Origin: Armatimonadota bacterium
GTDB taxonomy: Bacteria > Bacillota > Desulfotomaculia > Desulfotomaculales > Nap2-2B
Assembly: GCA_023511535.1 (NCBI GenBank)
Contig: JAIMBK010000001.1
Coordinates: 45,493 to 109,492, forward strand
Reading direction: 5' to 3'
DNA length: 64,000 nt
Made by a program: the position numbers and the translations under genes. The notes beneath the pieces are model-generated. The model ran no database searches and was not told the DNA's origin. It worked only from the letters and a program-made list of their open reading frames with translations. Positions 5,005 to 57,757 of this stretch are shown one piece after another. How positions within the stretch are numbered: the stretch's first letter is position 1; the number at the start of each line of letters is the position of its first letter.

Positions 5005-5442
5005 CTACCGCATCCAGGAAAAAAGTTCGCGATCCCGGGCCTGGCTTTTCAGTTCGGAAGAAATATCCACATTGCTCGGCACAAAAAGGAAAATCCCGTT
5101 GCCGACTTTTTGCGTATTCCCGTTTAGGCCGTAGGTTGCCCCGCTGACGAAATCGACCACCCGTCTGGCCAGTTCGGCATCCGCCTGCTCCAGGTTGACA
5201 ATCACGGGCCGCCTGTTTTTCAGGTGATCGACAATCCCCTGCACATCCTCGAAAACTTTCGGCTCCGCCACCACCACCCGCACCTGCCGCTGGGCGTGCA
5301 GGCTCACCACCTGCCCTTTGCGCCGGGCCGGCGAAACCATTTCGTCTTCTTCCCGGCCTTCTTTTTCCTGTTCTTCCTCTTCCAAAGGCTCCTCCTCAAA
5401 TCCGATAAAACCCAAGACCTTATCTACAAATCTCCTGGCCAT
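5005..5442 (-). CDS. sepF: Cell division protein SepF
   Basis: N-terminal membrane-targeting region; RRPVIVNLEQADAELARRVVDFVSGATYGLNGNTQKVGNGIFLFVPSNVDI. Confidence 0.93.
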   Translation of the reverse strand: MARRFVDKVLGFIGFEEEPLEEEEQEKEGREEDEMVSPARRKGQVVSLHAQRQVRVVVAEPKVFEDVQGIVDHLKNRRPVIVNLEQADAELARRVVDFVSGATYGLNGNTQKVGNGIFLFVPSNVDISSELKSQARDRELFSWMR

Positions 5443-5455
5443 CGCTCACCCTCCT

Positions 5456-5560
5456 TGAAAATAGGGATTAGGAATCAGGGGTTAGGAATTAGGGGTAAAT
5501 ACTTTTACATAATTATACTTTATGGTGAGAACGAACGTTCTTATGGGAAACTCCTTGGAA
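5456..5560 (-). repeat. Leader repeat copy 1, upstream of sepF
   Basis: Minus strand: AAGGAGTTTCCCATAAGAACGTTCGTTCTCACCATAAAG...GTAAAAGTATTTACCCCTAATTCCTAACCCCTGATTCCTAATCCCTATTTTCAAGGAGGG. Confidence 0.85.
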
Positions 5561-9885: not shown

Positions 9886-10905
9886 TTACTTATGCCCCGT
9901 GGGCCCTTTGGGGATGCGGCCCGTCCGGATGCACTCGCTTCTCAGCCGGCGGCCGACGATCTTTTCCGTCATCCGGCCGATTTCCAGCACCCGGTCCACG
10001 TTCACCCCGGTATCGATGCCCATTTCGTCCATCATGACCACCATGTCCTCGGTGGAAACGAGGCCGACAATGTTGGGATCCTGGTAATAGTACGAACCCG
10101 TCCCGGCCACGGGCACGCCGTCCACGAAGTTGGCCGGCTGGCCGCCGATGCCGCCCAGGGTGCTCTCGAAGTGGGTAATCCCGGCCTGCAGGGCCGCCAG
10201 CACGTTGGCCAGACCCCAGCCGCGGGTCACGTGGAAGTGGGCGATGTGCAGGTCGGGGTTGGGGAAGGCGTCGAGGACCATGGAAAAATATTCGTACACC
10301 TTATTGGGCGGGGCGGAGCCGTCGTGATCGGCGTGTTCAATGTCGTCGGCCCCCAGTTCTAAAAAGCGTCTGGTCACTTCCACCGCCGCCTTTAGCTCCG
10401 TGGGCCCTTCGATGGGGCAGCCCCAGATGGTGCTCACCGTGCCGTTAAACTTCATCCCGGCGTCGTGGACCTTTTGAATGCAGCGCTCCACCTCGGCCCA
10501 GTAACCTTTATGATCGAGCCCGGAGTTTTTCACCTGGTGCGATTCGGAGGTGGATACCATCATCAGTACGCGGTCCGGGCCGTATCCTTCCTTTCTGGCC
10601 TGGATGGCCCGGTCCACCGCCCTTTCCCGGATGGTGACGGCGGTCAACTCCACGCCGGCCAGCTTATCCTTAACTTTTTTGCTGGCGCGCAAAAGCTTAA
10701 ACAGCTCGTCAGCGTCGGCAAACTGGGGCATTCCCCGGGGGTTTCCGTAATTGGTGACTTCCAGGCGCTTAAACCCCGCCAGGATCAGTTCTTCTAAAAC
10801 CCAGAGCTTGGCCAGGGTGGGGATAAACTTTTCCTCGTGCTGGAAGCCGTCCCGGACGGTTATTTCTCCCAAAACTACCTTTTTCGGATACTTTAATTCG
10901 GCCAT
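9886..10905 (-). CDS. HMG-CoA lyase / pyruvate carboxyltransferase (DRE-TIM) family protein
   Basis: GEITVRDGFQHEEKFIPT...FKRLEVTNYGNP...FHVTRGWGLANVLAALQAGITHFESTLGGIGG. Confidence 0.85.
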   Translation of the reverse strand: MAELKYPKKVVLGEITVRDGFQHEEKFIPTLAKLWVLEELILAGFKRLEVTNYGNPRGMPQFADADELFKLLRASKKVKDKLAGVELTAVTIRERAVDRAIQARKEGYGPDRVLMMVSTSESHQVKNSGLDHKGYWAEVERCIQKVHDAGMKFNGTVSTIWGCPIEGPTELKAAVEVTRRFLELGADDIEHADHDGSAPPNKVYEYFSMVLDAFPNPDLHIAHFHVTRGWGLANVLAALQAGITHFESTLGGIGGQPANFVDGVPVAGTGSYYYQDPNIVGLVSTEDMVVMMDEMGIDTGVNVDRVLEIGRMTEKIVGRRLRSECIRTGRIPKGPTGHK

Positions 10906-10923
10906 CTCTCCCTAGCCTCCTTT

Positions 10924-11026
10924 GAAAATAGGGATTGGGAATTAGGGAATGGGAATTAGGGGAGTAAATACTGTTACATTTTTCATTTCTTTATGGTGAG
11001 AATGAACGTTCCCATCAACTCCCCGG
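10924..11026 (-). repeat. Leader repeat copy 2, upstream of the HMG-CoA lyase-like gene
   Basis: Minus strand: GGGGAGTTGATGGGAACGTTCATTCTCACCATAAAG...GTAACAGTATTTACTCCCCTAATTCCCATTCCCTAATTCCCAATCCCTATTTTCAAAGGAGG. Confidence 0.85.
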
Positions 11027-11254
11027 TCAATGATTTTAGAAAAATTATATAATAATTGCGCATCGGTTATCAACTAGAAAATTAAAAATTAAACCTTAAT
11101 TCAAGGTGCACCGTAATCCCGGCCAACAGGGAATTGCCGCAAAAATTCATTTATCGGTTTTTGACTGGGGTTAGCAGGATTTTTGTCCGTTACTCAGAAT
11201 ACAATAGTTATTGAAGAAAATCTTCGTTTTCCGGAGCAGTTGGCAAGGAGGCCG

Positions 11255-11284: not shown

Positions 11285-11339
11285 ACGACTTTTAACTCAA
11301 AAGGGTGGTAGAATACAATTCCCAATTCCTGTTTTTCGA

Positions 11340-11416
11340 GGATTTTCCCATGGGAACGTTCGTTCTATCCATAAAGTATTTATCCCTATTCCCTAACCCC
11401 TATTTTTTGAGGAGGG
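11340..11416 (+). repeat. Leader repeat copy 3, upstream of carB
   Basis: CCCATGGGAACGTTCGTTCTATCCATAAAGTATTTATCCCTATTCCCTAACCCCTATTTTTTGAGGAGGG; a partial extra 3' half at 11314-11340. Confidence 0.85.
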
Positions 11417-11420
11417 CGTC

Positions 11421-14400
11421 ATGCCGAAGCGAACCGACTTGCAAAAGATCATGATTATCGGCTCCGGCCCGATTATCATTGGCCAGGCCTGCGAATTCGA
11501 CTATTCCGGCTCCCAGGCCTGCCGGGCTTTAAGGCAGGAAGGATACCAGGTGGTTCTGCTCAACAGCAACCCGGCCACCATCATGACCGATCCCGAAATG
11601 GCCGACCGGACCTACATCGAACCGATCACCCCGGAAGTGGCGGAAAAAATCATCCGGCGTGAGCGCCCCGACGCCCTGTTGCCCACCCTCGGCGGGCAGA
11701 CCGGCTTAAACCTGGCCGCCGAACTGCACCGGCGCGGGGTTTTGGCCCGGTACGGGGTGGAACTGATCGGCGCCAAATTTGAGGCCATCGAAAAGGCCGA
11801 GAAAAGAGATCTCTTTAAAGCGGCCATGGAGCGGATCGGCCTCGCCGTCTGCCGCAGCCGCTACGTCAACTCGGTGGTGGAAGCCCTGGCCTTTGCCCGG
11901 GAAACCGGCTACCCCGTGATCGTCCGCCCTTCCTACACCCTCGGCGGAACCGGCGGCGGGGTCGCCCACAACGTCGACGAACTGCGCGAACTGGCCGCCC
12001 GCGGCATCGAACACAGCCCGGTAGGGGAGATCCTGGTGGAGGAATCCGTCATCGGCTGGAAGGAATACGAGCTGGAAGTGATGCGGGACCGGGCCGACAA
12101 CGTGGTGATCGTCTGCTCCATCGAAAACTTCGACCCGATGGGCATCCACACCGGGGATAGCATTACCGTCGCCCCCGCCCAGACCCTCACGGACAGGGAG
12201 TACCAGGAGATGCGCAACGCGGCCATCCGCATTATCCGGGAAATCGGGGTGGAAACCGGGGGTTCCAATATCCAGTTTGCGGTGCACCCCGAAACCGGGC
12301 GGATGGTGGTGGTGGAGATGAACCCGCGGGTTTCCCGGTCATCCGCCCTGGCCTCCAAAGCTACCGGCTTCCCCATCGCCAAAATTGCGGCCAAGTTAGC
12401 CGTGGGTTACACGCTGGACGAACTGCCCAACGACATCACCCGGGAAACGCCGGCCTGCTTTGAACCGACCATCGATTACTGCGTGGTCAAAATCCCGCGC
12501 TGGGACTTCGCCAAGTTCCCCGGCGCCGACCGGACCCTGACCACTCAGATGAAATCGGTGGGGGAAGTGATGGCCGTCGGCCGCAACTTTAAGGAGGCCC
12601 TGCAAAAGGCCATCCGCTCCTTAGAGCAGGACCGCTACGGCCTGGGCGTGGACGGCAAAGACGAGCTGGCCGGGCTGTTCCCCGCCCTTCCGGAAAATCG
12701 CCCCGGGGAGCCAGAAGCGTCAAAACGGCGGGAAGAAAAGCTGCGGGAGGAAGTCCGGGCCAGGCTGATTACCCCCTGCCCGGAACGGATTTTTTACCTG
12801 CGCCACGCGTTGCGCCTGGGTCTGACCGTGGATGAGATTTACGCCTGCACCGGCATCGACCGCTGGTTTCTCCACAACCTCCGGGAACTGGTCGAGTTTG
12901 AGCAGAAGCTGGCCGGGGCGCTCGCCGATGGAGCGGGGAATTTGCCCCCGGACCTCCTGGAGCAGGCGAAAAAATACGGTTTTTCCGACCGCCAGCTGGC
13001 CTATCTGGCGCAAACGGAGGAGTCTTCCATCCGCCGGCGCCGGCTGGCGAGCCAAATCCGGGCGGTCTTCAAAATGGTCGACACCTGCGCGGCGGAATTT
13101 GAAGCCTATACTCCTTATTTTTATTCCACCTACGGCCGGGAAAACGAGGCCGTCCCGTCCCGGCAGAAAAAGGTCATGATCATCGGCAGCGGCCCCAACC
13201 GGATCGGCCAGGGCATTGAATTCGACTACTGCTGCGTCCAGGCCGCCTATGCCTTGCGGGAAGAGGGCTGCCAGGTGATCATGGTCAACTGCAACCCGGA
13301 AACGGTGAGCACCGACTACGACACCTCCGACCGGCTTTACTTCGAACCGCTGACCTTAGAAGACGTCCTCAACATCTGTGGCGTGGAACAGCCGGACGGA
13401 ATCATTCTGCAGTTCGGCGGCCAGACGCCGCTGAAGCTCGCCCGCTCTCTGGAAAAAGAGGGGCTGCCCATCATCGGCACCGCGCCAGCCAGCATCGACC
13501 TGGCCGAAGACCGGGAAAAGTTTTCGGCGCTTTTGCGGCGGCTCGGCCTCAAACAGCCGGCCAGCGGCACCGGCCGCTCGGTGGCCGAGGCCCGGCGGAT
13601 TGCCCGGGAGATCGGCTACCCCGTGCTGCTGCGGCCTTCTTACGTGCTGGGGGGGCGGGCGATGGAAGTGGTTTACGACGAGGAGTCCCTGGTCGATTAC
13701 ATGAACCGGGCGGTGGCGGTTTCGGCCGGGCACCCGGTGCTGATCGACAAGTTCCTGGAGGGGGCCGTGGAAGTGGACGTGGACGCCCTTTCCGACGGCC
13801 GCCTGACCGTGATCGGCGGTTTAATGGAGCACATCGAGGAGGCCGGGGTGCACTCCGGGGACAGCGCCTGCTCCCTGCCCCCCTTTAGCCTGGCCCCCAC
13901 GCACATTGCGGAAATGAAAAGGCAAACGGAACTTCTGGCGCGGGAACTGGCAGTGGTGGGGCTGCTCAACGTCCAGTTCGCCGTCGAAAACGGCGAAATT
14001 TACGTGCTGGAAGCAAACCCGCGGGCTTCCCGGACAGTCCCCTTCGTCAGCAAAGCCACGGGAATTCCCCTGGCCAGGCTGGCCACCAGGGTGATGCTGG
14101 GCAAAAAGCTGGCCGAACTCGGCTTCACCCGCGAATTGATCCCTGACCACGTGGCCGTGAAAGAAGCGGTCTTTCCTTTCATAAAATTTCCCGGGGTGGA
14201 CATCGTCTTAGGTCCGGAGATGCGCTCCACCGGGGAAGTAATGGGCATTGACGACAATTTCGGCCTGGCTTTTGCCAAGTCCCAGATAGCGGCCGGGGTT
14301 CCCCTGCCGCTCAAAGGAACGGTGCTGCTCACCGTGGCCGATAAGGACAAGGGGGCGCTGCCGGCGGTGGCCCGGGGATTTGCGCAGCTGGGATTCAAGC

Positions 14401-14726
14401 TGCTGGCCACCCGGGGGACGGCCCGCCTGCTGGCCGATCACGGTCTCATCGTGAAGACGGTCAAAAAAATGGGCGAAGGCCGGCCCAACATCGTGGACCA
14501 CATCAAAAACGGGGAGATTGACCTGATCATCAATACTCCCCTGGGGAAAGGGCCGAAATACGACGAGTACCACCTGCGCCGGCAGGCCATGATCAGCAAC
14601 GTCCCGATCATCACCACCATCCGGGGCGCCCAGGCGGCCCTGGAGGGAATCGCCAAAATGCGCGGCGGCCTGCGGGTAAAATCGCTCCAGGAATATCACC
14701 GGGAGGCTTCGTCCAAAATCATTTGA
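11421..14726 (+). CDS. carB: Carbamoyl-phosphate synthase large subunit
   Basis: Full-length 1101 aa; duplicated ATP-grasp halves ([26 protein letters not shown] / [26 protein letters not shown]). Confidence 0.97.
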
Positions 14727-56789: not shown

Positions 56790-56901
56790 GAGGAGTTGCC
56801 CATGAGAACGTTCGTTCTCTCCATAAAGTAATGAAAATATGTAAAAGTATTTACCCCTATTTCCTAACCCCTAATTCCTGATTCCTATTTTTTGAGGAGG
56901 G
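56790..56901 (+). repeat. Leader repeat copy 4, upstream of Znu-like SBP
   Basis: GGAGGAGTTGCCCATGAGAACGTTCGTTCTCTCCATAAAGTAATG...GTAAAAGTATTTACCCCTATTTCCTAACCCCTAATTCCTGATTCCTATTTTTTGAGGAGGG. Confidence 0.88.
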
Positions 56902-56908
56902 ACGATTA

Positions 56909-57757
56909 TTGAGGAGGGTTCAGCCACTTCTCGCCGGGATTATTTTAACGGTCATTTTGCTGGCTCTTGTTGGGTGTGCGGCAAAGGAAAGCAAAAAGCT
57001 CAAAGTTGCTGCGGGGACTACGTTGATCGCCGGGATCGTGCAGGAAGTAGGCGGCGACAAAGTAGAGGTGGTAAATATTGTTCCCCCGGGCCAGTGCCCC
57101 GGCCACTTCGATTTAAAGCCGGAGGACGTGCGGAAGCTGGCGGACGCAAAACTGCTTTTGCGCCACGACTGGCAGGGGGGGATGTTTACCAAAGAGCTCC
57201 TTGACTCGGTGCACAATAAGGAGCTGGAGGTGGTGGAAATAGCCGTGGCCGGCAACTGGATGGCGCCGCCGGCGCAAAAAGAGGCGGTGCAAAAAATTAC
57301 CGGGGTGTTGACGGAAAAAGATCCGGCAAACAAAGCTTACTACGAGGAAAAAACCAACCGGCTGGCCGCGCTGATCGAGACAAAAGACAGGGAAACCCGG
57401 GCCAGGCTCCAGGCTGCTGACGTAAGCAGCGTAAAGGTAATGTGTTCGGAGATGCAGCAAGGTTTCCTGAAATGGGCCGGTTTTGACGTGGTGGCCACCT
57501 ACGGGCGGCCGGAAGAACTCAACCCGCAAAAAATCCAGGAACTGCTCAACAAGGGGAAACAGGCCGGCGTAAAACTGGTGGTGGACAACCTGCAGAGCGG
57601 CCCGGACGCCGGCCAGGGCATTGCCAAAGAGTTGGGAGCGGCGCAGGTGACCATCTCCAACTTCCCCGGCGGCCTGCCGCAAACCGAAACCTGGAGCGCC
57701 GCCCTGGAGAAAAATGTGGAACTGCTTCTGGATGCCCTGAAGAAAAGCCGGAGCTAA
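56909..57757 (+). CDS. Metal ABC transporter substrate-binding lipoprotein, ZnuA/TroA-like, divergent
   Basis: Lipobox LALVGCAAK; LIAGIVQEVGGDKVEVVNIVPPGQCPGHFDLKPEDVRKLADAKLLL; TTG start after GAGGAGGG. Confidence 0.88.
   Translation: MRRVQPLLAGIILTVILLALVGCAAKESKKLKVAAGTTLIAGIVQEVGGDKVEVVNIVPPGQCPGHFDLKPEDVRKLADAKLLLRHDWQGGMFTKELLDSVHNKELEVVEIAVAGNWMAPPAQKEAVQKITGVLTEKDPANKAYYEEKTNRLAALIETKDRETRARLQAADVSSVKVMCSEMQQGFLKWAGFDVVATYGRPEELNPQKIQELLNKGKQAGVKLVVDNLQSGPDAGQGIAKELGAAQVTISNFPGGLPQTETWSAALEKNVELLLDALKKSRS

Follow-up and report, generated by a model that had tools for sequence, protein, structure and literature searches.

A family of small non-coding repeats that probably insert behind Shine-Dalgarno sequences and carry their own

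We describe a short repeat that occurs four times in a 64,000-nt stretch of bacterial DNA (the window) and many more times in the rest of the genome. We consider it fairly probable that it represents a family of small non-coding mobile elements which insert 3' of a Shine-Dalgarno (SD) sequence and bring an SD of their own. The evidence comprises the dispersal of the copies, their absence at orthologous loci of a sister species, their orientation, the presence of an SD at both ends and the mutual independence of the left and right SDs.

Data and methods

The genome containing the window has 3.18 Mb in 136 contigs. For the census, fetched stretches were joined to a sample of 779 kb out of these 3.18 Mb; whole-genome BLAST and pattern searches were done besides. 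The sampled contigs were chosen for holding copies, which should not bias orientation. Genes were called with a home-made codon model, some starts being assigned by visual inspection, and the SD pairs were delimited manually.

Copies of the repeat in the window

All four copies named in the preliminary description were found, and the window contains exactly four. As had been claimed, each is located directly 5' of a start codon, is oriented as the gene and ends in the SD of that gene. The copies before sepF and the HMGL-like gene are on the minus strand, and those before carB and the znuA-like gene are on the plus strand; Pfam assigns the four genes to SepF, HMGL-like, CarB (CPSase) and ZnuA. 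The features are as follows.

5005..5442, minus: sepF (PF04472, E=3e-30)
5449..5456, minus: right SD AAGGAGGG in front of sepF
5457..5550, minus: element copy before sepF, between the two SDs
5464..5494, minus: cargo of 7-nt units (CCCTAATTCCTAAC..), sepF copy
5527..5542, minus: hairpin AAGAAC(GTTC)GTTCTC, sepF copy
5551..5556, minus: left SD AAGGAG (old host site), sepF copy; the sister species has an SD here and no element
9886..10905, minus: HMGL-like gene (PF00682)
10916..10923, minus: right SD AAAGGAGG, HMGL-like copy
10923..11018, minus: element copy before the HMGL-like gene; empty site in the sister species
10998..11013, minus: hairpin GGGAAC(GTTC)ATTCTC, HMGL-like copy
11044..11049, minus: TATAAT upstream of the HMGL-like insertion; the sister species can be aligned here and also has TATAAT
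11343..11407, plus: element copy before carB; its cargo is short, and a probable remnant of an earlier copy lies in front of it
11352..11367, plus: hairpin GGGAAC(GTTC)GTTCTA, carB copy
11408..11415, plus: right SD TGAGGAGG, carB copy
11421..14726, plus: carB (PF02786 and others)
56796..56892, plus: element copy before the znuA-like gene
56804..56819, plus: hairpin GAGAAC(GTTC)GTTCTC, znuA-like copy
56855..56885, plus: cargo of 7-nt units, znuA-like copy
56893..56900, plus: right SD TGAGGAGG, znuA-like copy
56909..57757, plus: znuA-like gene with a TTG start (PF01297)

The 3' ends of the copies read AAGGAGG, AAAGGAGG or TGAGGAGG and are separated from ATG or TTG by ~5 to 10 nt. On the gene strand the sepF copy is AAGGAG-TTTCCCATAAGAACGTTCGTTCTCACCATAAAG..CCCTATTTTC-AAGGAGGGTGAGCG-ATG. 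The earlier proposal that the repeat supplies the RBS holds and has to be extended: the 5' edge of the repeat is an SD too (the old host site or the end of an earlier copy), and the target apparently is also an RBS, giving two per insertion. Just 5' of the carB copy, positions 11318-11342 of the window hold the probable earlier-element remnant (CAATTCCCAATTCCTGTTTTTC-GAGGA).

Structure of the element

The general layout is: host SD - TTCCCCAT - hairpin GAGAAC(GTTC)GTTCTC - ..ATGAAAAT - cargo - CTATTTTC - element SD, with a size of about 50-110 nt in the genome of the window. In the 5' part, the left SD is followed by about 8 nt (TTCCCCAT) and by a hairpin with 6 bp and a 4-nt loop. The stretch 3' of the hairpin ends in ATGAAAAT, after which come the cargo, CTATTTTC and the right SD. 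GAAAATAG is complementary to CTATTTTC, with the cargo between them; 2 nt separate the two in the shortest form. The cargo is exchangeable; often it consists of 7-nt repeats (three kinds: CCTAAC/T, GACGACT, TGTGCCT), otherwise of a GC hairpin or a foldback sequence, and it differs between two species at what is apparently one orthologous locus (L084, L097).

The hairpin helix is 91.7% paired, a level reached by 25 of 500 shuffles, and covariation is modest, with both sides of one pair varying in 14 sequences. Conservation of the hairpin, as judged from these sequences, appears moderately supported. The partners of the right GAAAAT/ATTTTC pairing are close together only in short copies, with DNA fold z of -1.3 and -2.7. 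With z of about -1 to -2, RNA folds were not clearly better than those of shuffles, and the idea that RNA structure sequesters the old SD was rejected, the folds not being convincing.

The left SD differs by site (AAGGAG, GAGGGAG, AAGGGAG, TGAGGAG), and the right SD follows the subfamily: the short form in the genome of the window ends in TATTTTC-TGAGGAG whatever the left SD. The two SDs are identical in 7 of 35 hand-parsed copies, compared with 7.6 expected by permutation. Identity no better than chance argues against faithful duplication of a target and for an SD brought by the element itself. The left SD is probably the target, and the element carries the right one. Where copies stand in tandem, each right SD serves as the left SD of the following copy, and the least diverged copy is usually nearest to the gene. 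Such arrays fit insertion of an element into the SD of the previous copy.

Several further variants were observed. At G000:C71:59293-59659 (L175), a foldback cargo of ~280 nt with inverted ends GGGCTGGAATTTGTCCGG / CCGGACAATTCCAGCCC lies between the core and CTATTTTC-SD. The variant core GAGTTGCCCATRATGACTTGCGTCCTCTCCATAAA, followed by 7-nt repeats, occurs at G000:C127:102, in the C44:25741 region and at C1:41742 and may define a second subfamily. The 3' modules (TATTTTY + SD) with 7-nt-repeat cargo at G000:C50:16015, C72:3194, C72:18759 and C115:60300 each precede a gene, and no hairpin core is recognisable in them.

Genome-wide census and orientation

With 40 of 135 candidates scored, BLAST with one copy gave at least 51 matches in the genome. 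Many contigs end within the repeat, often at 77 nt, which is expected of short-read assembly, and the true copy number is therefore probably higher. Profile search of the 779 kb yielded 60 cores at E<1e-3, and none of the copies lay inside a called gene.

There were 41 evaluable copies, located away from contig ends. Thirty-eight of them are on the strand of the next downstream gene, whereas 55% (0.55) would be expected for random intergenic placement (P about 2e-7); the remaining three point away from the start. When tandem copies are collapsed to clusters, 30 of 33 face the start (P about 1e-5). Random orientation away from starts, named in the preliminary description as the outcome that would speak against it, was thus not what the mapping gave. 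By our reading, 21 of 30 clusters have a start no more than about 16 nt behind the element SD, and three more probably do; the other six are degenerate or further upstream of the start; the null for a start within 40 nt is 7%. The 3' module TATTTT[CT]..SD was found 60 times in the genome compared with 3 times in the reversed genome sequence; the corresponding numbers in the sister species are 6 and 10. The genes behind the copies are unrelated and often of the housekeeping type (gatA-like, prs, accB-like, sepF, pfkA). The suggestion that the repeat marks a shared regulon finds no common function among these genes to build on.

Empty sites in the sister species

The sister species from the same genus (G001) has no copy detectable by whole-genome BLAST, and the profile search gave one weak match there (E=0.15). 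At about ten orthologous loci the element is absent from the sister species, and most of these have an SD immediately 5' of the same gene. For example, AAAGGAG-element-TAAGGAGGG corresponds to ATAAGGAGGGATGAAAAATG in the sister species, with a conserved upstream TATAAT. The clearest empty site is that of pyruvoyl-dependent arginine decarboxylase, where TATAAT..CAAAGGAG / TTCCCC..CTATTTTTT / AAGGAGGGAACCCAATG corresponds to TATAAT..GATAAGGAGGGATGAAAAATG in the sister species. Within the window, the same pattern is seen at the HMGL-like and sepF loci. Since TATAAT is conserved upstream at the arginine decarboxylase and HMGL-like loci, the insertion probably took place in the 5' UTR. The alignments suggest insertion in the lineage of the window, loss from the sister species being the alternative.

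Distribution in the order

Within the order, 13 of 113 genomes, from four families, have the core, and in those relatives it also often precedes starts or ORFs. In a strict-pattern scan of genome contigs, the core was matched in only one named record, a Desulfotomaculum sp. MAG. The pattern CTATTTTCNRRGGAG has 46 matches in the genome of the window and none for the reversed pattern, and it is also enriched in genomes with no detectable core (G045, 22 vs 0; G048, 8 vs 0). Its flanks in G045 and G048 demonstrate the same layout with different hairpins. In a second genus (g24; G048/G082) the element is (GGAGGAG)TCACTCAC-GACGAT(TC)ATCGTC-..GATGAAAAT..CTATTTTC-(GGAGGAG); in G048 it occurs in tandem, 5' of a 183-aa ORF. 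This second hairpin, GACGAT..ATCGTC, was matched 10 times in one genome and 8 times in another, with weaker matches in eight more. A third hairpin was seen at one locus of G045, (GAGGGAG)TTACCTC-GCGC(GGA)GCGC-..CTATTTTC-(GAAGGAG)GAAGTC-ATG, before a 333-aa ORF. Comparison of these loci suggests that the architecture occurs with at least two, probably three, different hairpins across one order.

Proposed mechanism and alternative explanations

In the mechanism that we propose, the insertion point of the element would lie directly 3' of an SD-like RAGG(G)AG. The host SD would be left upstream and the 3' SD of the element would now stand before the start codon, lengthening the 5' UTR and keeping both the promoter and the SD-start pair. 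The SD of an earlier copy could itself receive new copies, giving tandem arrays. Transposition may proceed by recognition of the hairpin beside the target motif, possibly as single-stranded DNA, similarly to IS200/IS605 or REP; an enzyme would mobilise the element, and insertion would presumably be near-neutral for the host. The term "mobile 5'-UTR/RBS cassette" from the preliminary description agrees with the dispersed and tandem copies, the empty sites and the element-owned SD. A broader and tentative reading, held with somewhat under even confidence, is that of a new single-strand transposon superfamily in the clostridial order, with the SD as target and lineage-specific hairpins read by a transposase; each insertion would regenerate a working SD, so that spread would have almost no cost.

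The position bias could be contributed to by purifying selection against insertions elsewhere. Taken as the whole explanation, selection would act on near-random intergenic insertions and retain just the copies that place an SD before a start. The absence of copies from called genes would agree with that, and the 3' SD makes such copies tolerable, but there is an SD at the left boundary too, both in host DNA and in tandem copies, and selection acting through the downstream gene has no need of it. Only three of the 41 evaluable copies point away from a start. We regard this explanation as unlikely. A 5'-UTR regulatory motif (a site for an RNA-binding protein or an attenuator) that marks a regulon and spreads by being useful seems more doubtful still. 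The location in the 5' UTR beside the SD speaks for it, and heptamers before start codons in Beggiatoaceae were read in this way (PMC4679880); against it are the unrelated downstream genes, the lack of the repeat at the same genes in the sister species, the lack of an Rfam match and the RNA fold z of about -1 to -2.

We give little credence to the translation of a short peptide, MRTFVLSIK, from the old SD. Its ATG is present in 34 of 44 distinct cores, in most of them 6-7 nt after the left SD, but nine of the 44 have a frame-shifting inserted base before the hairpin and substitutions are spread over the codon positions (47/38/61). A coding mini-ORF was rejected, the frame not being kept, and the core is regarded as non-coding. 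Least credible of all is a mobile LexA (SOS) operator in the core GAACNNNNGTTC. The core fits GAAC-N4-GTTC, and GAACAATTGTTT and GAACACCTGTTT are found upstream of two lexA-like genes of the same genome. Operators of LexA in Firmicutes have a C before GAAC, which is absent from the core, and the fit is only partial; the site lies between SD and start, downstream of TATAAT at two loci, and related elements of the same layout have hairpins with no LexA-like motif.

The two lexA-like genes, L289 and L290, have GAAC-N4-GTTT upstream.

Search for a transposase and class membership

Y1 loci were searched in the genome of the window and its 12 core-bearing relatives. The core was absent from the flanks of all 30 fetched loci, and a Y1 transposase as the carrier was rejected; the genomes are incomplete and these loci are part of the Y1 matches, so this absence is not final. 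The genome of the window has one RAYT-like gene (C93). This Y1 transposase, at G000:C93:38779-39099 (L110), lies between inverted GGGGGACACCATACT ends and is unrelated to the repeat. A classical MITE (DDE) was rejected, as inspection of the ends revealed no terminal inverted repeat and there is no sign of duplication; target-site duplication was likewise unsupported by the permutation of SD pairs. For a GTAG/CGTC-tagged REP the tag does not agree, being RAGGRAG at about 8 nt from the hairpin. Rfam gave no match at E up to 1 for five loci, and a search for a phage or plasmid origin gave no match.

Comparison with known systems

Among open-access papers we found no SD-targeting or SD-bearing repeat of this kind, and novelty is provisional to that extent. 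An element that aims at an RBS and restores one would, if the proposal is true, have a simple way of multiplying in 5' UTRs of essential genes while these survive, and its insertions would steadily lengthen and restructure leaders genome-wide. It is also a possible natural tool for placing a sequence between promoter and SD. An architecture with several hairpins across an order makes the search for the enzyme concrete.

The ends of IS200/IS605 elements are similar in that a hairpin lies close to the end, the left flank retains a target motif and the right end has a similar motif, and in both cases there is no sign of target duplication (here, left and right SDs identical in 7/35 vs 7.6, and the empty sites). 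The differences are that no Y1 transposase bearing these ends was seen at the 30 loci, that the repeat ends in an SD and that its cargo is non-coding. IS200/IS605 elements have guide tetranucleotides 5' of the hairpins, and these determine where cleavage occurs (PMC8266576). CAT often precedes both hairpins of the present family, which by analogy would fit identical guides for identical sites. REP sequences of the REP/RAYT (TnpA-REP) system share the short tagged hairpin, the many dispersed non-coding copies and the lineage-specificity of hairpins. Unlike in REP, the tag is an SD-like RAGGRAG and apparently the target, not only a part of the repeat; the repeat is nearly always in one orientation before a gene, and no examined RAYT locus has it in the flanks.

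Enterobacterial RU and pneumococcal BOX/RUP are also small, mobile, non-autonomous intergenic repeats of roughly 100 nt, and targeting and regeneration of SDs are not reported for them in the searchable literature (PMC2759123, PMC3049150). The nearest phenomenon is that of the TAACTGA heptamers of Beggiatoaceae, which likewise have the forward orientation, lie immediately in front of the start codons of unrelated genes and are scattered across species (PMC4679880). Those repeats are bare heptamer arrays, about 10% of them with an SD (PMC4679880), whereas in the family described here the heptamers are cargo between hairpin and SD, and empty sites are seen.
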